The position numbers and the translations under genes were made by a program. A model generated the notes under the pieces. The model was given only the letters and a program-made list of their open reading frames with translations, was not told where the DNA came from and searched no databases. Of a stretch of 64,000 nt of DNA, positions 7,048-33,221 are shown in pieces; positions within the stretch are counted from its first letter, which is position 1; each line of letters starts with the position of its first letter. Source of the stretch: a virus. The DNA is taken from IMG/VR virus record IMGVR_UViG_3300005529_000023, positions 112,871 through 176,870 of that record. One strand, written 5' to 3'.

Positions 7048-8586
7048 TTACACCTTTGCTCTAGCCCTAACTTCCTCAAACGTAGTTGCGTTGAGGATCT
7101 TACCGTTCTCGAAGATCGGAACCAACATGTCGCCAGACATCTCGTGATCAAGAGTCAGTCCATCTGTGTAGTTGATCTTCCCGTTAGCATCCTTCCAAAC
7201 AGCAACCTTACCCTTTTGGCTCTTCTTGATCCCGTCATCGGTCTTAGGATTCTTGAAGATCTGCTTCTCTTTTCCGTTGATCACGCACGCAGTAGACTTG
7301 AGTGCGAAACCAAAAGTATCTCGGGTGTTGTATTGATAGGTGTACGAACCAATCCCGAAGACTACGTTGATCGAAGCGAAACCCTTGGCTTTAAGCCTAT
7401 CCATAATCTCTTTGGCGCGATTGAGTGTGATCGCATCACCGTAGATCAGGCCAATATGGGAGTCAAGCAGGCAGTAGCCATTGGCGGTGACAGTTCCACC
7501 GAAGATATCCCAAAGAGCTTCGACGGCGCCTTTATGTTGAAGGCTTCCCCTCGGAGCATCGGGATCGCCGCAAACGATAAGGACTGGATCTCCTGAGTCA
7601 GGACGAATGACTACTTTGTCGAGACCGATCGGGCTGCCCTTGCGAGCGAGAATGTCCTTCTTGAGAGCAGGAATCACTCGTCCGATCACATCCCAAAAGT
7701 CGTATCCATCGGAAACGATCGACACTGGACCGCTAGGATGAACGACATTGATGAGAGTTCTCAAATATTCCATGTCGTCGCCATAAGCGCACTGGATGCT
7801 GTGCTCGGAAGCAGGAATGGAAGTTCCAACGAGTTCCTTTTCGATGTTAGCCTTGTAGTAGTACTCAGCTGAGGAAATCGACGGACACGTATCTGTTCCA
7901 GAGAACTGAGTCAGATGGCCCATGCCAGTGAGCATTCCAGCGTGAACACCCATCATTCCTCTCATCGAGAAATCATGGCCTTGGAACATCACAAAGCCCG
8001 TATCACCGACAGTTTCCATTGCTGCCTTATTGAGGATCTTACGATACTCACGAGCGATGGTAGCTGCGGTGTAGCAAGGCCACAGTTCGCAGGAGGCCAA
8101 AGTCTCGATGTAGTTCGTGAGCCAAAAGAATCGGGGATCGGTGTTCTGGATCGTGAGAACTGGCGTACGAAGAGGAACAACCGTTCCTTCTGGAAGTGCC
8201 TTGATGAGCAAGGGCAGATAACCCAAGTCATGAAGCTCTTCAAGATGCTTCGTTTCAGGGTTTTGATCGCCGAGAGTAAATTTCACGAAGCGAGTGTACT
8301 CCGCGAGCACTTCTTGCTTATTTCTCTTAAAGAAGTTCTTGTTGAAGTAGTCGATCAAGAACCTCTTAGTGAAAGCCTGATTACCGAAAACGGCGACTTC
8401 ACAGACATCCTTCATGCGCGTAGCGCGAGGAGTCCAAGTGGAGTACACGAGCTGCGTTCCCTTGGGATACATCGGCCTGTGTGCGAGCTTGTAGAAGTCG
8501 CACAAAGCAGCTGCCAAAGGCTCAAATTCGCCCGGCGTGTTTAGGGGAAACTCCATACCAATATCGTGACTGTAGTAGTTGCTCAT
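7048..8586 (-). CDS. nadV: Nicotinamide phosphoribosyltransferase-type enzyme (NAMPT/NadV; possible NARP1 Namat)
   Basis: The 512-residue protein matches NAMPT throughout: DFYKLAHRPMYPKGT near the N terminus, FSMRGMMG, GTSIPASEHS with the conserved His, VSDGYDFWD, and RPDSGDP, which binds the ribose-phosphate. NAMPT joins nicotinamide to PRPP to make NMN. In the phage NARP1 pathway a relative (Namat) instead uses ADP-ribose pyrophosphate to make NAD+ directly. The neighbouring PRPP-synthetase-type gene makes that alternative realistic. Overlaps the small upstream gene by ATGA. Confidence 0.92.
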   Translation of the reverse strand: MSNYYSHDIGMEFPLNTPGEFEPLAAALCDFYKLAHRPMYPKGTQLVYSTWTPRATRMKDVCEVAVFGNQAFTKRFLIDYFNKNFFKRNKQEVLAEYTRFVKFTLGDQNPETKHLEELHDLGYLPLLIKALPEGTVVPLRTPVLTIQNTDPRFFWLTNYIETLASCELWPCYTAATIAREYRKILNKAAMETVGDTGFVMFQGHDFSMRGMMGVHAGMLTGMGHLTQFSGTDTCPSISSAEYYYKANIEKELVGTSIPASEHSIQCAYGDDMEYLRTLINVVHPSGPVSIVSDGYDFWDVIGRVIPALKKDILARKGSPIGLDKVVIRPDSGDPVLIVCGDPDAPRGSLQHKGAVEALWDIFGGTVTANGYCLLDSHIGLIYGDAITLNRAKEIMDRLKAKGFASINVVFGIGSYTYQYNTRDTFGFALKSTACVINGKEKQIFKNPKTDDGIKKSQKGKVAVWKDANGKINYTDGLTLDHEMSGDMLVPIFENGKILNATTFEEVRARAKV

Positions 8587-8765
8587 TTTGCACCCCCAAC
8601 TTCATCACGGGACTTTCCGCAAATTTCGCACAAGCTGCTATTCTTGAACCAGTGCAAGTGTGGGGTCTTCGCCAGCCTGGCCTTGGGTTCTCTACTGTGA
8701 TACACAGTTTCCATTTGTTTCTTGGTCATTCCTAAGGAATTGACCTTCTCTACTGTTTTTTCCAT
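8583..8765 (-). CDS. Small CxxC protein
   Basis: The 60-residue protein has one CEICGK knuckle near residue 46 and a basic middle. An AGGAG site lies 6 bases before ATG. It lies between the PRPP-synthetase-type and NAMPT-type genes and overlaps the latter by 4 bases, so it is co-translated with the NAD enzymes. Function unknown; one CxxC plus nearby His residues could hold zinc. Confidence 0.6.
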   Translation of the reverse strand: MEKTVEKVNSLGMTKKQMETVYHSREPKARLAKTPHLHWFKNSSLCEICGKSRDEVGGAK

Positions 8766-8782
8766 ATAATCTCCTATATGGG

Positions 8783-9562
8783 TTAAGCTTCACTCTTCTC
8801 GCCATCGCGAGTGAAGACACGTTTGATGCCTGATTCATGTAGGGTCTTCACACCGCGTGAGAAGATCCCGTGAGTGACAAAGAGATTTACCTCTTTTGCA
8901 CCTGCGGCCAACAGGTCTTTGGCCAACAACTTGAAGGTGGCGCCACCATCGCAGATATCGTCTACAATTAGGACGTTTTTGCCGGCGCAATCACCGATAA
9001 CTTTGTAACTGAGAATGTTTCCACTGAGCTGATCGCGAACTTTTTCACCGTAAATGTGCGGCCTGAAACAAGTAGAGTAAACCTTCGAGTACTTGGTCAG
9101 CGCACCCTTGTCTGGATAGCAGAAAATTGTGAATGCGCCGTTTTTGTCCATTTCTTGAGCAACTTCTTCGACCTTCTTAACAGGGTAGATGGCTTCAGCG
9201 GAACAACTCGGACGAACAGCGTCCCAATTATGGGGATCGTGAATGATCAGATGATTGACGAATGTGAATGTGTTGAAGAGTTTGAAAAAGGTCTTGAGTG
9301 CAAAACAACTATCATTCGCTATCGGCTTGTCTTGGCGAGCATACGGCAAATAAGTAATTTCGATCTCGCTTTGAACAGCAAGGGTGTCGAAGAGATGAAG
9401 AAGCTGGAACAGCTGCATCACTTCTGCTTCATTCGAATATTGCCAGAGAATTTTTGCTGGATTGGAACGAGAACCAGTGAGCGGTTCGGGAAGTTTCCAG
9501 ACCTGGGAGGTCTTATCGGGGAAAACCGTAACATTCAACGGTTGACCGTTTAGGTAAATCAT
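8783..9562 (-). CDS. prs: Ribose-phosphate pyrophosphokinase-type enzyme (possible NARP1 Adps)
   Basis: The 259-residue protein has the PRPP synthetase landmarks: YLPYARQDKP (ATP/flexible loop), IHDPHNWDAV (metal site) and the ribose-5-phosphate loop VLIVDDICDGGATF. It is shorter than bacterial Prs (about 310 residues). Prs makes PRPP, the NAMPT co-substrate. The phage enzyme Adps of NARP1 belongs to the same family but pyrophosphorylates ADP-ribose. Gene order with the NAMPT-type gene suggests one NAD+ pathway. Confidence 0.9.
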   Translation of the reverse strand: MIYLNGQPLNVTVFPDKTSQVWKLPEPLTGSRSNPAKILWQYSNEAEVMQLFQLLHLFDTLAVQSEIEITYLPYARQDKPIANDSCFALKTFFKLFNTFTFVNHLIIHDPHNWDAVRPSCSAEAIYPVKKVEEVAQEMDKNGAFTIFCYPDKGALTKYSKVYSTCFRPHIYGEKVRDQLSGNILSYKVIGDCAGKNVLIVDDICDGGATFKLLAKDLLAAGAKEVNLFVTHGIFSRGVKTLHESGIKRVFTRDGEKSEA

Positions 9563-11380: not shown

Positions 11381-11836
11381 CTATAAGATTAACTTGTTGT
11401 TCTTTTTGCGATTCTCATCTGCGGATAAGTACTGAAGATTCCAAGGAACATGTAGTCCACAAACATCTCTGCCACGTAAAGGAACTATGTGATCTACGTG
11501 AAAACCCACTGGACAACTGTCATATATCGCGGAAATCTCTTTCTCGAAATTCCCAATAGTAGCCTTGAGTTGGATAGCACGTCTTTTGGCTTGATTTATC
11601 CTATGTTTATGTTTTCTCACTGGATTCTGAAAATATTTTCTATCCAATTCCCTAAGTCTTTCTGAGTTATTTTCTTTCCATTTCTCTCGTCTTAACGAAT
11701 ATTTATCCTTATTTGGTTTGTAATAAATATCTATAAAACAGGGCTTACAGACAGAAGTCCTTCCAAACTTTCCCTTCTTTTGCTTATTAAATTGATCAAG
11801 CTCTTTTTCTAAACCGCAATTTTTACAAATTTTCAT
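11381..11836 (-). CDS. HNH endonuclease
   Basis: The 151-residue product has an N-terminal four-cysteine zinc module (CKNCG, then CKPC) and the HNH core FHVDHIVPLRG...HVPWNLQYLSADENRKKNN. ATG 11836 is chosen because the module begins there. The gene is AT-rich compared with its neighbours and wedged directly in front of the protease gene, as expected for a homing insertion. It may have displaced the protease gene's own ribosome site. Confidence 0.85.
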   Translation of the reverse strand: MKICKNCGLEKELDQFNKQKKGKFGRTSVCKPCFIDIYYKPNKDKYSLRREKWKENNSERLRELDRKYFQNPVRKHKHRINQAKRRAIQLKATIGNFEKEISAIYDSCPVGFHVDHIVPLRGRDVCGLHVPWNLQYLSADENRKKNNKLIL

Positions 11837-11893
11837 ATGTAGAAGATTCGTTCTTGTGAATACGTAGTTAAAGAATTTACAAACTTGCATCAT

Positions 11894-13629: not shown

Positions 13630-15027
13630 ATGATTGAACAACTTCAGTCACTAATGAAAGCTCTCGAAGCAGGTAGTTATAACGCTGCTCCAGGGCAACT
13701 TGCACAGGGCGCTGCCTTGATGGTTGAGGATCTCTCGGCCGTCATGCAGAACGTCACATTTGATGACTCTCACATTAAGCTTCAGAAGATTCTTCCAAGC
13801 AAAGATGTGAAGTCTCAGCTACACCAATTCAACCGTCAGCTAGACTACGGTATCTTCGGTGGTTCCGCTCAGTTTGAAGGCGGAATCGGCGAAGAAGACA
13901 CGAGCAACTACGTTCGTGCAGTAGTGCCTATGGCATACTACAGCACGACTCGTCGTGTCACCGTTGCTGCTAACATGATCGGTGCATTCGACGGCGTTAA
14001 AGCCGAAGATCGCGCCGCTGCAGATGCAGCAATGAAGCTCGCGGGCGACATCGAATTTGACTGCTTCCGTGGTCAGAGCGATTTCTCGAACGCAGGTGTT
14101 TTCGATGGTAACCCTCTTGCCGTCGCAAAGCTTCCTAACATGATCGGTGTGGACCAACAGGTTCGTCAGTCCGATGCTCAACAGAACACTCAAGACCTGA
14201 TGTTCGCTGAGTTCGGTTCTGATCAGACTGTTGTTCTCTCGGCAGGTGGAACTCTAACCCAGTCCATCATCGAGGACTCGTCTGTCCGTTCTGCAATGAA
14301 CATGGGCGCTGCTGACCGTCTAATCCTAGATCCAATCAGCCTCTCGGCCTATAACAAGATCGCGCACGCTAAGGAACGCATCATGCTCGCTGGCTCAGCC
14401 CAGGAAGCAACCGGCGCTCACCTTCGCACTCAGTGGACTTCCAGCGCAGTTGTATCCCTAGAAGCTTCGCGCTTCCTATCGGGTAAGACTCGCCCAGCTC
14501 GTCCACGTACCGGATCTCCATCGGCTCCTACTGTCAGCCCAGCTGACGGTGGCGCAGCTGGATCGCTACTCCAGACAGGAACGTACACGTACTTCGTTAC
14601 TTCCTGCTCGATGCGTGGCGAGTCGCTACCTTCGGCTTCTGCTTCGCAGGCAGTTACCGCAGGCGACAAGGTTGTTCTAACGATCACTGGTGCAGGCGCA
14701 TACTTCAACGTCTATCGTTCGGACGTTGGTGGATCGGCCGCTTCGGCTAAGTTCATCGGCAAGGTCGCAGTCAATGCGGCTGGCACTGGTGCAACCTTCA
14801 CCGACCTCGGCAATCGCCAGCCTGGTTCTGTCACTGGATTCCTAATCCAGGGCAACACTCTCGGCCTAGCTCAGCTTGCTCCTTACAGCAAGTTGAAGCT
14901 TGCGATCAGCGACCTCAGCTTGCCAGAAGCGCACTTCCGCTTCCTTTCGTTGGCTGCTTACCAGCCACGTAAGAACGTTCTCGTTGAGAACATCACTGGC
15001 CAGCTAAGCGCTAACTCTCAGAGCTAA
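13630..15027 (+). CDS. Major capsid protein
   Basis: The 465-residue protein follows the scaffold-like gene and has a very strong ribosome site (AAGGAG). The core (about 44-290 and 400-465) has the look of an HK97-type capsid protein of large myophages, with a conserved segment near LDYGIFGGSAQFEGGIGEED and many Ala/Gly. Residues about 295-395 (starting GSPSAPTVSPADGG) form an inserted Ig/fibronectin-like beta domain likely exposed on the head. Residues 10-42 resemble part of the protease. A terminator follows. Confidence 0.8.
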   Translation: MIEQLQSLMKALEAGSYNAAPGQLAQGAALMVEDLSAVMQNVTFDDSHIKLQKILPSKDVKSQLHQFNRQLDYGIFGGSAQFEGGIGEEDTSNYVRAVVPMAYYSTTRRVTVAANMIGAFDGVKAEDRAAADAAMKLAGDIEFDCFRGQSDFSNAGVFDGNPLAVAKLPNMIGVDQQVRQSDAQQNTQDLMFAEFGSDQTVVLSAGGTLTQSIIEDSSVRSAMNMGAADRLILDPISLSAYNKIAHAKERIMLAGSAQEATGAHLRTQWTSSAVVSLEASRFLSGKTRPARPRTGSPSAPTVSPADGGAAGSLLQTGTYTYFVTSCSMRGESLPSASASQAVTAGDKVVLTITGAGAYFNVYRSDVGGSAASAKFIGKVAVNAAGTGATFTDLGNRQPGSVTGFLIQGNTLGLAQLAPYSKLKLAISDLSLPEAHFRFLSLAAYQPRKNVLVENITGQLSANSQS

Positions 15028-21722: not shown

Positions 21723-22766
21723 GTGTCTAACGCCGAACTCTTTCTAAAGAAAACTCTGGGCGAGGACTTTATGGAGTCCTTAGCCAAGGTTGAACTTTGG
21801 AAACCGGGTACCAGAAGTACCATCGATCATGAAGAGCTTAAAACAGCTCTACAGATCGTGCCACGTACTGTTATGTCGCTACTCATTCGTGAGCTTGCGC
21901 CTATGGCTGTTGGAGAAACTAAAGAAGTAAACCTTTTCGTTGCCGGCAACGCTATGATGCGCGTCACCAAGCACGAGCGCGACGTATATTCTGGTGAAAT
22001 AGAACAGGACAATAAGAAAGTAGTCGATTTCAAATTCCGCGCTCTTCCCGGCGTCGGCCTTGTCATTATGAGTGCATTTGAACTCTACGACATGGAAAAC
22101 CTAATCAATGCTTCTGACCGTAACATGCAAAATCCTATGGTAGAAGATGCCGAAGCCAAAGTACAAAGGATGATCGACGAACGTATTTCCATGACCGATC
22201 TAGTCAACAAAGTTGTTGATAGGAAGATGATGGAGCGTCAGGCTATTCACGAAATGATGATGACTAAGCTCACCGATGAACTTCAGGCAATGAAAAGCAT
22301 CGCTGCAGCACAGCAAGAAGTGATTATTGATCACCAAAACAAGCATCGTCAAATTGCGGATCTTCGCGAAATGCAGGAAAGAACTACCCCTCAGACAGAA
22401 GAATACTTCAGGGGAATGACAAACGGACTAGAAGTAGCTAATGCTACAGTAAACAACCATGAACCCAAGTTCGTGGAGCCTCAAAAGAAGGTTCGTCCTC
22501 TCAAGGAATTCCTCGAAGGAAGAAAAAAGAAACCTTCCGAATTTTCGATCCAAGTAGCTAAGGGTGAAACCATTAGCTGCCCAGATTGCAAGAAAAACAT
22601 CTTTGATGGCGCAGTATTCTCAGGCTGTATTTGTCTTGGCGACGACAGAGAAAGAAAAGTGTTTATCAAGAAAAGCGAAGATGGGATCAAAGTTCGCTTT
22701 AGCCGTGGCTGGGACCAGGAAAACATTGAAATGCTCCTAGAAGTGTTGAGGAGGAAGCGTGGCTAA
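21723..22766 (+). CDS. Virion/assembly protein with zinc ribbon (GTG start)
   Basis: The 347-residue protein begins at GTG 21723 after GAGGGACAGCTGCC. It has an N-terminal alpha/beta part, a long Met-rich helix (about 140-220), then FLEGRKKK near residue 263, and a C-terminal CPDCKK...CICL ribbon. The same FLEGRKKK octapeptide ends the protein encoded at 26359-26700, and an IKKSED peptide follows, so these modules appear to share assembly or cleavage signals. Overlaps the next gene by 8 bases. Confidence 0.5.
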   Translation: MSNAELFLKKTLGEDFMESLAKVELWKPGTRSTIDHEELKTALQIVPRTVMSLLIRELAPMAVGETKEVNLFVAGNAMMRVTKHERDVYSGEIEQDNKKVVDFKFRALPGVGLVIMSAFELYDMENLINASDRNMQNPMVEDAEAKVQRMIDERISMTDLVNKVVDRKMMERQAIHEMMMTKLTDELQAMKSIAAAQQEVIIDHQNKHRQIADLREMQERTTPQTEEYFRGMTNGLEVANATVNNHEPKFVEPQKKVRPLKEFLEGRKKKPSEFSIQVAKGETISCPDCKKNIFDGAVFSGCICLGDDRERKVFIKKSEDGIKVRFSRGWDQENIEMLLEVLRRKRG

Positions 22767-24372
22767 GATGTTGTATTTGAGCTACGACGGCGACAACTGC
22801 GGTAAAAAGGTAGGTCGCGCCATCCTGGCAAACGATGAAAAAGCACTACATGAGATCTCAGCCAAGATCGATCTTGGCCATGAGATTGTCAATCATTGGG
22901 TTGCCGAACACGGCGGAAAGAGAATTTCAGGCGGTGGAGACGAGGGATCTTTCAAGATTCCAGAAGAAACTGCTGGGGAGATTGAGTCCCTAAGAAAAGA
23001 CTATCACTATGCGACTGGTATTACTATGTCTGTTGGCATTGGCAATAACCTCTCGGAAGCTGGAAGAGCACTTCTTGCTGCAAAGTTCAGAGGTAAAGAT
23101 CAAGTCGCGCACTTTGACGAAAATGTCGAAAAGGATATTAAGAAAGCACGTCAACGTGTAAAAAAGGGCAAGGCTTCTCAAGATGAAGTGAAGCTTGCAG
23201 AAGCATATCTTGAAAAAGCTGAGGCTCCTATGGAAAAAGAAAATGAAAAGAAGCCAGAAGAGGCTTTAGAACAGGCACCACAAGAAGGTGCTATACATGA
23301 ATCTGAGTGTCCTTATTGTGAAGCTACAGATGGCGTAGATCCAGACCATTGCAAGTACTGCCATGACGCAGATACTGCAGCTGGTCATGATGATTGTCCT
23401 TACTGCAAGCGAACGGAGGTAACGGGCGATGACTGCCCTTACTGCAAGCAAATGGGTGAAACAGCAGGCGATGACTGTCCTTACTGCAAGCGCCCTGGCG
23501 GAGAAGCAGTGGGCGCCGCTGCGCCTGCCGACCTAAGTGCCCCTGGCGCCGCAGCTGCCCTAGAAGCAGAGGCTTGCAAACAAAATGATCTAAATCCTCC
23601 TGGTATTGGCAAACCTGATCCAATCAGAGAAGTTCCAATCGAGGCGGCTCCTTCTAATGCAAGAGCGCTTCCTGAAATGCCACAAAAGCCAGATCCAGCT
23701 GCTCCATCTGGAGATGGTCCTATGGCCGGAATCGATCCAGAAGACAACCACTCTACGGATGCTCTCAAGGCTATTGCTTCTCAAATCGAAGCCGAAGGCA
23801 ATCCGCCAGCTAGCGAAGTAAACGCCATTGATACTACCGAAACAGTAGAAGGTAGTAACATGGAAGGTACCACTTCGCGCCCCGAGGGATACGCACAGAA
23901 CGTTCCTTCCGATATGGGGCTAGGACAGGCCAATAGTCCAGAAGGCGCAATTGAAGGACAGTCACAAGAAGATAGCAACCCTGATCTAACCTCAGTCCTT
24001 CAAGACGGGCTCCAGCAAGAAGCTTCGAGCATTCAAAAAGATCGAGCCGTACAAATGGTTTCGTCTGCACTTCAAGGGTTCAAAGCAAACAAGCAGTATT
24101 TAGAACAGGCAAAACAAGCCGCTCCACAACTCTACCAGTCCACCATCATGATGCTCAAAGCGATGATCGAAATGGCGAAAGCCCTTGGTTTAGGCGGTGG
24201 CGTAGAAGGATCTCCTAGTCCTCTTGACGCTGCGGCAGCGGGACAACAAACGGTAGCCGGTGGAAATGAATGGGACGACCCATTCCCAACACACCCTGAT
24301 CAAGGCGGCGCACAGAAGCCTGGTCATCATGCAGCGGGCCAGGAGGCCGCTGCTAAGGCCCCACAGCGATAA
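22759..24372 (+). CDS. GGDEF/mCpol-like palm domain protein with tandem CPYC zinc knuckles
   Basis: Residues 1-121 of 537 look like a nucleotidyl-cyclase/CRISPR-polymerase palm: LSYDGDN with candidate metal ligands Asp10 and Asp12, SGGGDEG (57-63, the GGDEF-type turn), then TGITMSVGIGNNLSEA and AAKFRGKDQ, where GGDEF and mCpol proteins carry SxGIG and AKxxGK. A charged linker leads to about five CxxC knuckles (about 184-250, mostly CPYC), then a low-complexity Pro/Ala/Glu region and a C-terminal helix. It lies in the structural operon, so it may be a virion protein that makes or mimics a nucleotide signal. Confidence 0.65.
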   Translation: MAKMLYLSYDGDNCGKKVGRAILANDEKALHEISAKIDLGHEIVNHWVAEHGGKRISGGGDEGSFKIPEETAGEIESLRKDYHYATGITMSVGIGNNLSEAGRALLAAKFRGKDQVAHFDENVEKDIKKARQRVKKGKASQDEVKLAEAYLEKAEAPMEKENEKKPEEALEQAPQEGAIHESECPYCEATDGVDPDHCKYCHDADTAAGHDDCPYCKRTEVTGDDCPYCKQMGETAGDDCPYCKRPGGEAVGAAAPADLSAPGAAAALEAEACKQNDLNPPGIGKPDPIREVPIEAAPSNARALPEMPQKPDPAAPSGDGPMAGIDPEDNHSTDALKAIASQIEAEGNPPASEVNAIDTTETVEGSNMEGTTSRPEGYAQNVPSDMGLGQANSPEGAIEGQSQEDSNPDLTSVLQDGLQQEASSIQKDRAVQMVSSALQGFKANKQYLEQAKQAAPQLYQSTIMMLKAMIEMAKALGLGGGVEGSPSPLDAAAAGQQTVAGGNEWDDPFPTHPDQGGAQKPGHHAAGQEAAAKAPQR

Positions 24373-24439
24373 GCCAATTGGGCAACCAATTGGCAAACTC
24401 TCGGCAAAACATACCACGGAACACGTAGCTAGGACGCCT

Positions 24440-24598
24440 ATGCCTCCTGGCGGTGTGAATGCTAAGGGTCAGCAAAAAGTGATCGATCCTAAAACCGGAA
24501 AAACAAGGTGGATTGACAGGAAGTCTGGAATGGTGCAGAGCGCCACAGGGGTTCCAGTTAAGCCTCCTAAGCGAGGCAATGATGCCCCTCAAAATTAA
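24440..24598 (+). CDS. Small basic protein, 52 residues
   Basis: ATG 24440 is preceded by AGGACGCC. The frame continues upstream, but that part overlaps the palm-domain gene out of phase and is not used. The product is Lys/Gly/Pro-rich (KVIDPKTGKTRWIDRKSG) with a repeated Asp/Arg-Lys-x-Gly pattern, perhaps a small beta hairpin protein. It overlaps the next gene's start by 17 bases. Function unknown. Confidence 0.5.
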   Translation: MPPGGVNAKGQQKVIDPKTGKTRWIDRKSGMVQSATGVPVKPPKRGNDAPQN

Positions 24599-25337
24599 GA
24601 TCGATACGAGCGCAATCGCCAAGCAGATGAAAGAGTTCGCTACGGAAGTAGAGCAGGACTTAAGGAAGGGCGTTGCAAATCTCGCAGCTATTACTCACGC
24701 CAAAGTGAAAGAGATGGCGAGTGAGGAATTGAAATCGTCTCGTCAAGAAATGATGGACAACATCGGTTTTGAAGAAGTTGCCGAGGGAGTCTGGATTGTA
24801 AGTATCGCCGAAGACGCACTTTGGATCGAAGAAGGCATCGAAGCAAACAAGGACATGAAGCCTGATTTGCTCAAGAACGCCAAGCACACGTCTAAAGATG
24901 GCCACAAGTATCGCACCATTCCCTTCGATTATGGCAAGCCCCCAACGCAGCTCACTGGTTACGCTCAAAATATAGTTGCTAGGATCAGATCGAACTTGAA
25001 AAAACAAGGCGTACCATTCAAGAAAATTGAAAAGGGTGCAAATGGTCAGCCTCTTACTGGGAAGCTTCACTCATTTGACTTTGGCGGAGAGATTCCTGGA
25101 AAAGGCAATACTCCAGTACTTCAAGGAGTGTCGATCTACCAGACCATCACGAAAACGGGTAACGTCCGACGTGATATATTGACTTTTAGAACTGTCAGTG
25201 GCGGCCCTGCAAGCGCAGGAAAATGGATTCACCCAGGTTTTACCGCCAAGAAGTTCCTTGATCGTGCTCAGGATTGGGCTCTCAAGGAATGGGAAGACAA
25301 GATCCTCCCTGAGATTTTGGGGAAATACGGTAAATAA
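24582..25337 (+). CDS. Putative neck/tail completion protein (gp10-like)
   Basis: The 251-residue product starts at ATG 24582 after GAGG. It opens IKIDTSAIAKQMKEFATEVE and ends IHPGFTAKKFLDRAQDWALKEW, with an ALWIEEGIEANKDMKPDLL segment between. This order resembles the HK97 gp10-type tail completion family, whose members form a ring between head and tail. Its place just before tail genes agrees. An inserted loop of about 60 residues makes it longer than HK97 gp10. Confidence 0.55.
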   Translation: MPLKIKIDTSAIAKQMKEFATEVEQDLRKGVANLAAITHAKVKEMASEELKSSRQEMMDNIGFEEVAEGVWIVSIAEDALWIEEGIEANKDMKPDLLKNAKHTSKDGHKYRTIPFDYGKPPTQLTGYAQNIVARIRSNLKKQGVPFKKIEKGANGQPLTGKLHSFDFGGEIPGKGNTPVLQGVSIYQTITKTGNVRRDILTFRTVSGGPASAGKWIHPGFTAKKFLDRAQDWALKEWEDKILPEILGKYGK

Positions 25338-26358: not shown

Positions 26359-26700
26359 ATGCCATACCGTTCAGATGCTCAAAGAAGATGGGCTCACACT
26401 GCCGAAGGAAAGAAAGCGCTGGGTGGCAAAGCCGCTGTCCACGAATGGGACGAAGCTACTAAAGGCAAGAAGTTGCCTGAAAAAGTGGGCAAAACAGAGG
26501 ATTTAGAAAAGGCCGTCAAAATGCCTTCAACCTCCGTTCCTAGCGTCAAACCTCCGAATCCAAGTAACGCCGGTCAGCTTTCTGTTAAAAGTCCAAAAGC
26601 GAAGAAGATGGCTGATCCATTCGGTAAACCCTCGTTATTTTTCAAAGCAGAAAGTATTCAAAAGCTCCATTCTTTTTTAGAAGGCAGAAAGAAAAAATGA
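26359..26700 (+). CDS. Small structural/assembly protein with FLEGRKKK tail
   Basis: The 113-residue protein begins MPYRSDAQRRWAHTAEGKKA, a start seen in many short phage proteins of unknown role, followed by a Pro/Ser/Lys-rich middle. FFKAES near residue 95 and a terminal FLEGRKKK match peptides in neighbouring structural proteins. The stop overlaps the HNH start (ATGA). Probably an assembly or packaged protein. Confidence 0.5.
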   Translation: MPYRSDAQRRWAHTAEGKKALGGKAAVHEWDEATKGKKLPEKVGKTEDLEKAVKMPSTSVPSVKPPNPSNAGQLSVKSPKAKKMADPFGKPSLFFKAESIQKLHSFLEGRKKK

Positions 26701-27263
26701 GAAAATGCCTAGAATGTAAGCAAATTAAACCAATAAAATGGTTCTATAAAGGGACACGAATTGGCGATGGAGTATTTTCTAAATGTGCTACTTGTAAACA
26801 AAAAGAACGTAAAAGAAGCGCATATCACTACAAGAAGAAACTGGCTAAAAAGCTTACTCCTAAAAAAACAAAAAATCAGTACATGAAAGAGAGGAAACAA
26901 AAAGATCCTCTTTTTAAGCTACTAGTTAATTTAAGAAATAGAAACTATTTCATATTTTCTGGACTAAACAAATCAAGTACTACCATTGACCTCTTGGGGT
27001 GCTCCATAGAGCATGCCAAAAATCATTTAGAAAAACAATTTAAACCAGGAATGAGTTGGCAGAATTACGGAAAAGAATGGCAAGTAGACCACATAATTCC
27101 GCTCAGAAGCGCTAAAAATAAAGAAAGTCTAGAAAGACTTTGTCATTTCAGTAATTTGCAACCCCTTTTCAAAGAAGAACACAAAATTAAAACCAAAGAA
27201 GACATGAAGTTAATAAAATCAATAACTTATGTCAACAAAGATGTAAACAACCCAATCTTCTAA
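26697..27263 (+). CDS. HNH endonuclease
   Basis: The 188-residue protein has an N-terminal zinc module (CLECK, CATCKQK) and a C-terminal core WQVDHIIPLRSAKN...HFSNLQPLFKEEHKIKT, the HNH pattern His-Asn-His. It is much richer in A and T (AAA, ATA codons) than the flanking structural genes, showing recent insertion. The ATGA junction with the upstream gene gives it coupled translation. Confidence 0.88.
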   Translation: MRKCLECKQIKPIKWFYKGTRIGDGVFSKCATCKQKERKRSAYHYKKKLAKKLTPKKTKNQYMKERKQKDPLFKLLVNLRNRNYFIFSGLNKSSTTIDLLGCSIEHAKNHLEKQFKPGMSWQNYGKEWQVDHIIPLRSAKNKESLERLCHFSNLQPLFKEEHKIKTKEDMKLIKSITYVNKDVNNPIF

Positions 27264-28121: not shown

Positions 28122-30272
28122 ATGTCTCTAAGAGTAGTAACACCATTCGTAAATACGAACATTCCCGGCGCGTATCCTAACGTCACGGTTCAGAGTAACC
28201 CAGTAGGACTTGGCGCTTCCGGCATCGTCGTGCTCATCGGTGAAGCTGATGGCGGCAACGGCTATCAGAACGTAGCACTAAAGAACAACTCGTTTACTCC
28301 TGACCAGCTTGATAAGGTGATGGCGACATACCTCAGCGGCCAAGTTGTAGACGCATTCCGCGCTCTCTCGGCACCTTCGAGCGATCCAGATATTACCGCT
28401 TCGGCAAACTTAGTTTACATCGTCAAGACCAATCAGGGCAACAAGGCTTCTGCTTTGGTTGACACGGACTATGGTACGCTCCAGGACCAAAACTGGGGTA
28501 AGCCAGGTAACCTGTACAAATATGACATTACATCGACCCAAGCAGAAGTTGCTCCTACCCTTCAGGGCGGAACAATTCCATCACTTGGCGCAGCCCTTAA
28601 CGGCGTTAGTTTCACTATCCGCTTGAATGGTGCAGCTGCAAGCGTTGTAACCCTAAGCAACACGACTGGCAACCACGATACGATTCCACATCTTGTTTCG
28701 GAGCTAAACCCTCTTCTCCCAGCGGGTGTGACTGCTTCGGCAGGTACCGCTCCAAGCTCGATCGCTCTAACGGTAACTGCAGACGCTGCAGCTTATCGCA
28801 AGGGCTGGGGCAAATCGTTTGAACTCAATGACTCAACTCCTGGCGATCTAACAGCGCTAGGACTAGTTGCCGGCCTCCAAGTTTCGTCTGAAGAACCAGG
28901 CGTAGAAGTCGCAGTTGTTCGCCCAGACAACAACACTAACGAAACATTCGATATTAGCGCTGTAGTCGCTCTCCAGGTTGGTTATCAGGGTACAACTGGT
29001 ACTCTAACCATCAATGGAACTACGGTCAGCACTACTGTTGTTGGTGGATCTGGAGCAAACCTAAGTATCCCCGTCTCGCAGTTTAAGACTTGCGCTGACC
29101 TTGCAACTTTCATTGCAGCTCAGACAGGTTACAGCTGCGTTTGCGCCCCAGCCGCACAGCAACTTGCTCCAAGCAAGCTTGACCAAGTTACGGCTATCGG
29201 AATCTGCTCTACAGGCGCTGGACTACTTCCAGGCCGCGTAAAGAAGGCAGCAAGCGACTTCCAGGCTACCATGGCTACTTCGCGTGTTACCAGCTTCGTT
29301 GTTGGGGCTAACGGCAATGCCGGACTACCTAGCCCAATGACTGCTGCTGCATTCCTATCGGGTGGAACTCGTGGTTCTACCGCAGCTGCAGACATCGTTA
29401 ATGCCTTGAGCCAGATTGCTGGTATTCAATGCAACATCATTGTTCCTCTGTTCTCTCAGGACGCTTCGGCTGACATTACCGCAGGTAAAACTGACAGCGG
29501 CAGCACATATACAATTGCTGCAATCAACGCTGCAACTAAGTCTCACTGCCTAGAGTTCAGTACGCCAAAGCTCAAAAAGAACCGTATGGCGATGCTTTCG
29601 TACCTCAATACTTACACAAACTGTAAGGCACAGGCACAGAGCCTCGGCAACTACCGCGTTTCTCTCTGCATGCAGCAAGTCACTCAGGTTGATAGTACTG
29701 GCAACGTCCAGACCTTCCAGCCTTGGTATCTTGCAACCGTAGCAGCTGGTATGCAGACTGGTGGATTCTACAAGTCCATCACAAACAAGGCTGCAAACGT
29801 CATTGCCCACATCGATCCAAGTGGATTCGATTCGGGAAGCCCTGGCGATGTTGAAGATGCAATCAGCGCAGGTATTTTGTTCCTATCCAGAGACACTTCT
29901 CGTGAATACTGGGTCAGCGACCAGACGACTTACGGCTTCGATACCAACTTCGTATACAACAGCATTCAGGCTGTTTACGATTCGGACATCATTGCACTCG
30001 ATCTAGCTTCGAGCTTCCAGACAAGCTTTGTTGGTAAGTCTCTTGCCGACGTTGACGCTGCTACTGGCCTAGCTTTCCTAGCTCAGAAGATGGACGGCTA
30101 TAAGAAGTTGAAGCTAATCGCTGCAAGTGACGACGCTCCTCTTGGTTACAAGAATCAGAAAATCTCGATTAGCGGTCCAGAGATGGATGTATCGGTTGAG
30201 ATCAAGCTCGCTACTGCGATCTACTTCATCCCAATCAGCATCAACTTCTCGCAAGTACAGAGCGCCGCTTAA
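28122..30272 (+). CDS. Contractile tail sheath protein
   Basis: The 716-residue protein has the sheath opening NIPGAYPNVTVQSNPVG and the next conserved block GIVVLIGEADGG, followed by variable, Ala/Thr/Gly-rich outer domains (about 130-430) and the conserved C-terminal half (SREYWVSDQTTYG; AFLAQKMDGYKKLKLIAASD). The C terminus ends with strands that interlock sheath subunits. It defines the phage as a myovirus and is followed by the tube gene. Confidence 0.93.
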   Translation: MSLRVVTPFVNTNIPGAYPNVTVQSNPVGLGASGIVVLIGEADGGNGYQNVALKNNSFTPDQLDKVMATYLSGQVVDAFRALSAPSSDPDITASANLVYIVKTNQGNKASALVDTDYGTLQDQNWGKPGNLYKYDITSTQAEVAPTLQGGTIPSLGAALNGVSFTIRLNGAAASVVTLSNTTGNHDTIPHLVSELNPLLPAGVTASAGTAPSSIALTVTADAAAYRKGWGKSFELNDSTPGDLTALGLVAGLQVSSEEPGVEVAVVRPDNNTNETFDISAVVALQVGYQGTTGTLTINGTTVSTTVVGGSGANLSIPVSQFKTCADLATFIAAQTGYSCVCAPAAQQLAPSKLDQVTAIGICSTGAGLLPGRVKKAASDFQATMATSRVTSFVVGANGNAGLPSPMTAAAFLSGGTRGSTAAADIVNALSQIAGIQCNIIVPLFSQDASADITAGKTDSGSTYTIAAINAATKSHCLEFSTPKLKKNRMAMLSYLNTYTNCKAQAQSLGNYRVSLCMQQVTQVDSTGNVQTFQPWYLATVAAGMQTGGFYKSITNKAANVIAHIDPSGFDSGSPGDVEDAISAGILFLSRDTSREYWVSDQTTYGFDTNFVYNSIQAVYDSDIIALDLASSFQTSFVGKSLADVDAATGLAFLAQKMDGYKKLKLIAASDDAPLGYKNQKISISGPEMDVSVEIKLATAIYFIPISINFSQVQSAA

Positions 30273-32864: not shown

Positions 32865-33221
32865 ATGAAGAATTGTGCTAGACCAATGTGTCCAGAGATA
32901 AATCCTCAACCAATATCTAGGTTTACTAAAAATAGAACTAGAAAAGACGGTCACCATCAGTGGTGTAAAACTTGTGTAAGGGAAAATGACAGAAAGCGAG
33001 ATAGGGCGAGACAGTTACATAAACGTCCTTATCTAAAACACAAAAAAGAGCATTGTGAAAAGTGCGCTTTTATAGCTATTCATCCGTGTCAGTTGGATGT
33101 TGATCATGTTGATGGAAACCACGAAAACAATGATCCGAATAATTTACAGACCTTATGCGCTAATTGTCATCGGTTAAAAACTCAATTGAATAAAGATTTT
33201 TTAAAGTCTAAAGTGTTATAG
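32865..33221 (+). CDS. HNH endonuclease inside the tRNA cluster
   Basis: The 118-residue protein starts with a zinc module (NCARPMCPE, CKTC) and has the HNH core CEKCAF...QLDVDHVDGNHENNDPNNLQTLC and CHRLKTQL. Its stop codon overlaps the first two bases of the tRNA-Ser gene. It is AT-rich and probably a mobile nuclease that entered between tRNA-Asn and tRNA-Ser; tRNA genes are common homing sites. Confidence 0.85.
   Translation: MKNCARPMCPEINPQPISRFTKNRTRKDGHHQWCKTCVRENDRKRDRARQLHKRPYLKHKKEHCEKCAFIAIHPCQLDVDHVDGNHENNDPNNLQTLCANCHRLKTQLNKDFLKSKVL

Follow-up and report, generated by a model that had tools for sequence, protein, structure and literature searches.

The mCpol gene and its position

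The DNA analysed here, hereafter the window, is a stretch of 64,000 nucleotides (bases 112871-176870) of the 176,870-base virus record IMGVR_UViG_3300005529_000023 of IMG/VR. An open reading frame (ORF) at 22759-24372, on the plus strand and with a GTG start, codes for a protein of 537 amino acids whose N-terminal module is an mCpol-type palm domain. The enzyme mCpol was characterized in 2025; it serves in bacterial defence, its product keeps a toxic effector in check, and it has been described in bacterial and archaeal defence loci (PMC12657218; PMC12657230). In the window, the gene is located in the structural cluster, between the capsid and tail sheath genes (Table 1). An earlier note on this DNA had placed the gene among virion genes, and the flanking capsid gene at 13630 and sheath gene at 28122 bear this out. 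No PHROGs family matched the protein.

Downstream of the palm follow five CxxC knuckles, a low-complexity linker, a conserved helical domain and a C-terminal domain in a shifted frame. The tandem zinc knuckles in the earlier note were recovered in the window as the five CxxC motifs. They are not a family-wide trait, being limited to part of the group and absent from two subclades and from Myxococcus phage Mx1.

Homology and fold of the palm

Residues 6-117 matched the Pfam mCpol family (PF18182) with an E-value of 2.1e-14 and 54.3 bits, against a curated cut-off of 26.4. A single-sequence phmmer search of the Protein Data Bank (PDB) returned significant matches only to the OptS/mCpol chains 9nwn and 9mnr/9pd0 (E = 6-8e-9). 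Residue by residue, D10, D12, S34, D61, K109 and K113 of the window protein align with D6, D8, S30, D57, K105 and K109 of OptS. These matches substantiate the polymerase-palm layout (YDGDN, SGGGDEG) that had been proposed from the letters of the sequence.

For structure prediction, the window protein was represented by its full-length ortholog L005, modelled with AlphaFold2 from an alignment of 36 relatives. The palm of this model has predicted local distance difference test (pLDDT) values of 93-98. Foldseek placed the OptS structures 9mnr/9pd0 at the top of its PDB matches, with template modelling (TM) scores of 0.88-0.89 by target and deviations of 1.4-1.7 A; GGDEF domains, Cas10 and adenylyl cyclases ranked behind. 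This fold search had been set beforehand as a check, and the ortholog model is a palm that stands nearer to mCpol/OptS than to GGDEF. It is thus nearly certain that the N-terminal module is a genuine mCpol homologue.

The palm shares with Panoptes OptS (PF18182; 9mnr, 9pd0, 9nwn) its fold, the catalytic Asp pair, the Lys pair and the base-selectivity Ser. Unlike OptS, it is phage encoded, is fused to a phage protein body of 300-700 amino acids and has no OptE partner that could be found. Its hairpin is of the GGDE type, whereas that of OptS reads AADG, and in a tree the phage palms form one clade separate from three bacterial OptS proteins. The placement of Mx1 in this tree is unsure because of long branches. 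GGDEF cyclases and the Cas10 palm belong to the same palm superfamily, the window motif SGGGDEG resembles GGDE[EF], and the Foldseek matches of the L005 model to both are significant. However, these matches are weaker, with TM scores of 0.5-0.6 to isolated GGDEF domains. The motif reads GGDEG and not GG[DE]EF, and a Pfam scan of the window protein at E<=1 contained no GGDEF family. The Cas10-Cmr2 palm2 family scored 15.6 bits against a cut-off of 27, and the protein has a single palm.

Pseudomonadota genomes gave weak PF18182 matches (L096-L104), which were discounted as proteins of the Cas10/Cmr2 type after inspection by eye of those with a translation at hand. Two BFVD models from uncultured Caudovirales, A0A6J5L1I5 and A0A6J5L0Y4, one of them named as a GGDEF domain, resemble the palm in a Foldseek comparison (E = 7e-9 and 6e-5). 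They have the same palm by structure, but show 17-19% identity and are 365-396 amino acids long.

Distribution among phages

Scans of viral sequences with two palm alignments (A2 and A3) reached four close relatives only, and the group was widened by anchoring on the sheath gene. The sheath-anchored scan gave 80 IMG/VR loci, 32 of which had at least 6.5 kb of upstream sequence; the palm protein was found in 30 of these 32, 4-6.5 kb upstream of the sheath gene. Another 48 loci came from two additional palm scans, with some overlap with the sheath-anchored set. A sheath gene was detected in 44 of them, in every case 4.5-6.3 kb downstream, and in the remaining four the sequence stops 2.4-5.0 kb past the palm ORF. 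Among cultured phages, Mx1 was the only match, with the gene at the same position upstream of the sheath; OptS as a query matched no cultured phage. On these sequences, a diverse group of contractile-tailed phages carries mCpol as a conserved gene with its predicted catalytic residues kept. No mention of a phage-encoded mCpol was found in the available parts of PMC12657218 and PMC12657230, or in a wider literature search that excluded subscription papers, preprints and supplements.

One locus, L054 (region 302-2533), has an HNH endonuclease-like gene directly upstream of its mCpol gene. Compared with the near-identical loci L062 and L053, the first part of its palm is a divergent allele, and the next several kb are mostly 98-100% identical. 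This pattern looks like homing with co-conversion.

Conservation and loss of the active site

Conservation was scored over 51 palms less than 95% identical to each other, with a median pairwise identity of 41%. D12, D61, K109 and K113 are invariant (Table 1), as are G93 and G95. In KpOptS, D6 and D57 are catalytic, metal-binding residues (PMC12657218), and S30 of OptS is the base-selectivity residue (PMC12657218; PMC12657230). The earlier note had expected the metal-binding Asp residues to be conserved in homologues, and this holds for D12 and D61 throughout; D10 is Asn in one subclade, to which this state is confined and which represents a single change on the sheath tree. Where it could be estimated, the ratio of nonsynonymous to synonymous substitution rates (dN/dS) was 0.04-0.12 for the palm; pairs estimable for both parts gave higher ratios for the remainder of the protein. 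These values are rough since many dS are saturated.

The palm can also be lost. L017 and L021 keep the same protein start position, the CxxC knuckles, the helical domain and the C-terminal domain, and the palm is missing; the 170 kb record of L021 has no mCpol elsewhere. On the sheath tree, one change accounts for the loss in this pair. WNM70340 of Mx1 is the only degenerate palm observed (the genome paper, PMC10720576, gives no proteomics). This protein resembles the window family in its position upstream of the sheath, its palm remnant, its helical stretch and its C-terminal part. In contrast, its D10, D61, K109 and K113 are lost, its mCpol score is 21 bits, and it has no CxxC motifs and one continuous frame.

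Structural or regulatory exaptation, in which an ATP-binding or dimerizing palm would serve head-neck assembly without turnover, would agree with the location in the structural cluster, with the degenerate palm retained in Mx1 and with the Asn10 subclade. A purely structural role leaves unexplained why D12, D61, K109 and K113 are invariant across 51 diverse palms, and in L017/L021 the palm is dispensable to the rest of the protein, so that this explanation is considered rather unlikely. Retained palms nearly always keep the active site, while unneeded palms can be deleted or decay, which is read as selection for catalysis. This pattern argues for catalysis rather than a purely structural fold, and the palm is probably active in most members.

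A shifted C-terminal domain

In several viral loci and in L090, the conserved C-terminal domain, of about 70 amino acids, is continuous with the upstream reading frame. At 25 examined loci it lies in the -1 frame, and in the window, L020, L027 and L088 in the +1 frame. In 23 of the 25 loci with the -1 arrangement, an X_XXY_YYZ heptamer (CCCAAAG/A or AAAAAAG) occurs at most eight codons from the zero-frame stop; the frequency of such heptamers in these ORFs would give about 1.4. The -1 frame of L079 and L057 becomes open just 10 and 7 nucleotides before this stop, at the heptamer. The window and its three +1 companions share a presumed site of the form (T/G)CC CCA CAG, followed in the window by a perfect hairpin just 3' of the stop; strong hairpins occur at the corresponding place in several relatives. 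An assembly error as the cause of the shifted C-terminus was ruled out, as 25 relatives have the -1 arrangement and three share both the +1 arrangement and the site of the window.

An X_XXY_YYZ slippery site with a downstream hairpin is characteristic of programmed -1 frameshift genes such as dnaX and those of phage tail chaperones. The present family has both elements in common with them. It differs in that the frameshift would extend an enzyme-bearing protein, encoded upstream of the sheath, by a C-terminal domain, and in that the window carries a +1/-2 variant. Because the frameshift site is conserved and the C-terminal domain lies in a shifted frame, ORF 22759-24372 probably encodes one of two predicted products. 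The ORF that had been delimited earlier is therefore present, but it gives the zero-frame product only and not the complete one, as the C-terminal domain runs to 24598 in another frame. The earlier note mentions neither this domain and the frameshift nor the deleted and degenerate palms.

Effector and host searches

The OptE/2TM-beta family (PF18153) had no match in the phage's own record or in seven relatives, while the Panoptes controls from Rahnella and Sulfitobacter were matched. No SAVED match was found, in a search that lacked a matching positive control, and two scanned sets of phage ORFs, 156 in all, had neither CARF nor HEPN in their respective top 25 families. No two-gene operon with OptE was found at the locus, and its setting between capsid and sheath genes contrasts with that of Panoptes, a chromosomal or plasmid defence locus of the host that often lies near CBASS, as exemplified by the Sulfitobacter plasmid.

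In bacteria, mCpol and effector genes are tightly linked (PMC12657218), and a phage-borne, Panoptes-like system of superinfection exclusion would need an unrecognized effector nearby. The surrounding genes are those of head, neck and tail, there is no Cap15/OptE match, and the SAVED, CARF and HEPN results above are negative within their stated scopes; superinfection exclusion is very improbable.

In a counter-Panoptes role, the palm would replenish the guard nucleotide, 2',3'-c-di-AMP or a similar molecule, and OptE would stay silent despite phage sponges or phosphodiesterases. The OptS product holds OptE inactive (PMC12657218; PMC12657230), the phage palm is a direct OptS homologue with a KpOptS-type Ser34, and the OptE search found no effector of its own. 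A bog metagenome-assembled genome (MAG), filed as Deltaproteobacteria, contains two contigs with the phage palm gene. No mCpol was found in 57 other genomes of its phylum, so that host distribution lends no support to a specific counter-Panoptes role. The position in a structural operon also argues against it, and the conservation of the gene over very diverse phages suggests a broader target. This role is accordingly judged to be quite unlikely.

Proposed function

The slightly favoured reading is that of a two-module protein, in which a catalytically competent mCpol enzyme is attached to a protein of the virion or of its assembly and its product probably alters host nucleotide signalling or defence. 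The palm, a phage lineage of mCpol with an intact active site of two Asp and two Lys, would most likely act like OptS and join ATP or other nucleoside triphosphates into a small cyclic dinucleotide; a cyclic dinucleotide is somewhat preferred as the product. The linker, the helical domain and the C-terminal domain reached by frameshifting would make up a protein body that belongs to the structural cluster and probably serves in assembly or in the virion. Frameshifting would yield mostly a short form, with the long form in minor amounts, and the protein body would attach some of the palm to the assembling particle. Because the phage yielded no cognate effector, the nucleotide would most likely act on the host, where it may feed or jam cyclic-nucleotide signalling or guard systems. 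An action of the product on host nucleotide signalling or defence is put forward tentatively, with a little less confidence than the nature of the product.

Several observations weigh against this two-module reading. One subclade has Asn at position 10, where OptS has a catalytic metal-binding Asp, and may be inactive or altered, and Mx1, a cultured phage, keeps a palm with a destroyed active site; part of the phage group may therefore be inactive. The association of the protein body with the virion or its assembly, which is marginally favoured, is read from the gene neighbourhood only. The absence of mCpol from the 57 genomes counts here as well, and the link between phage and host is weak, since co-binning of phage could by itself explain the MAG contigs. 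The boldest version, a virion-linked cyclic dinucleotide synthase across the whole phage group, tethered or delivered by the frameshift form and writing signals that disarm or hijack the nucleotide-signal immunity of the host, is improbable.

Features of the window and of the record

Table 1. Features of the mCpol locus in window coordinates.
Feature	Position	Strand	Evidence or remark
Capsid gene	13630-15027		PHROG major head protein match
Preceding gene of cluster	21723..22766	+	8-nt overlap with mCpol start; neighbour conserved in L001, L005, L006, L007
mCpol-type palm domain, residues 1-124	22759..23130	+	PF18182, phmmer to OptS, ortholog model
Motif D10-G11-D12 (OptS D6-G7-D8)	22786..22794	+	D12 50/50; D10 Asp 38/50, Asn 12/50
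S34 (equivalent of OptS base-selectivity S30)	22858..22860	+	Ser 43/50, Thr 7/50
SGGGDEG hairpin with D61 (OptS D57)	22927..22947	+	D61 51/51
KFRGK with K109, K113 (OptS K105, K109)	23083..23097	+	Both Lys 51/51; both lost in Mx1
Five CxxC knuckles, residues 184-243	23308..23487	+	
Acidic/proline-rich low-complexity linker	23488..23985	+	Sequence; orthologous stretch has low pLDDT
Conserved helical domain	23986..24183	+	Invariant columns in alignment A6; model helices; retained in palm-less L017, L021
Presumed frameshift site GCC CCA CAG (+1 or -2)	24358..24366	+	(T/G)CC CCA CAG common to L020, L027, L088
Zero-frame stop TAA	24370..24372	+	Sequence
Perfect 9-bp hairpin, GCAA loop	24373..24394	+	Just 3' of stop; -15.5 kcal/mol, z=-4.5
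C-terminal domain, shifted frame (IGQPIGKL...VIDPKTGKTRWIDRKSGMVQS)	24376..24598	+	Profile E=2e-39 in frame +1
Following gene	24579..25337	+	Overlaps C-domain reading frame; PHROG 16819
Tail sheath	28122..30272	+	phrog_279 E=1e-27; anchor for finding relatives

Other genes were noted in the same phage. By eye only, adjacent genes at 7048-9562 resemble nicotinamide phosphoribosyltransferase and phosphoribosyl pyrophosphate synthetase, a candidate pair for restoring nicotinamide adenine dinucleotide. HNH endonuclease-like ORFs, also recognized by eye, are scattered at 1882-2346, 11381-11893, 26697-27263 and 32865-33221, one of them within the structural cluster. Bases 1-80000 of the record (L105-L108) encode an RNA-repair set, with RNA ligase, PNKP phosphatase, RlaP polymerase and HAD_SAK domains, together with a YAcAr SLOG protein. 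A tRNAHis guanylyltransferase (Thg1), a release-factor domain, a chaperonin and a ClpP-like gene are found in L109-L110 and at 38048-63007 of the window.

Implications

The occurrence of mCpol in phages raises the question of the origin of mCpol, and the palm-deleted and degenerate versions of the protein are natural controls. If the palm is active, phages make such nucleotide signals and do not only destroy them. A virion synthase that writes these signals, if true, would be the mirror image of the phage sponges and phosphodiesterases.
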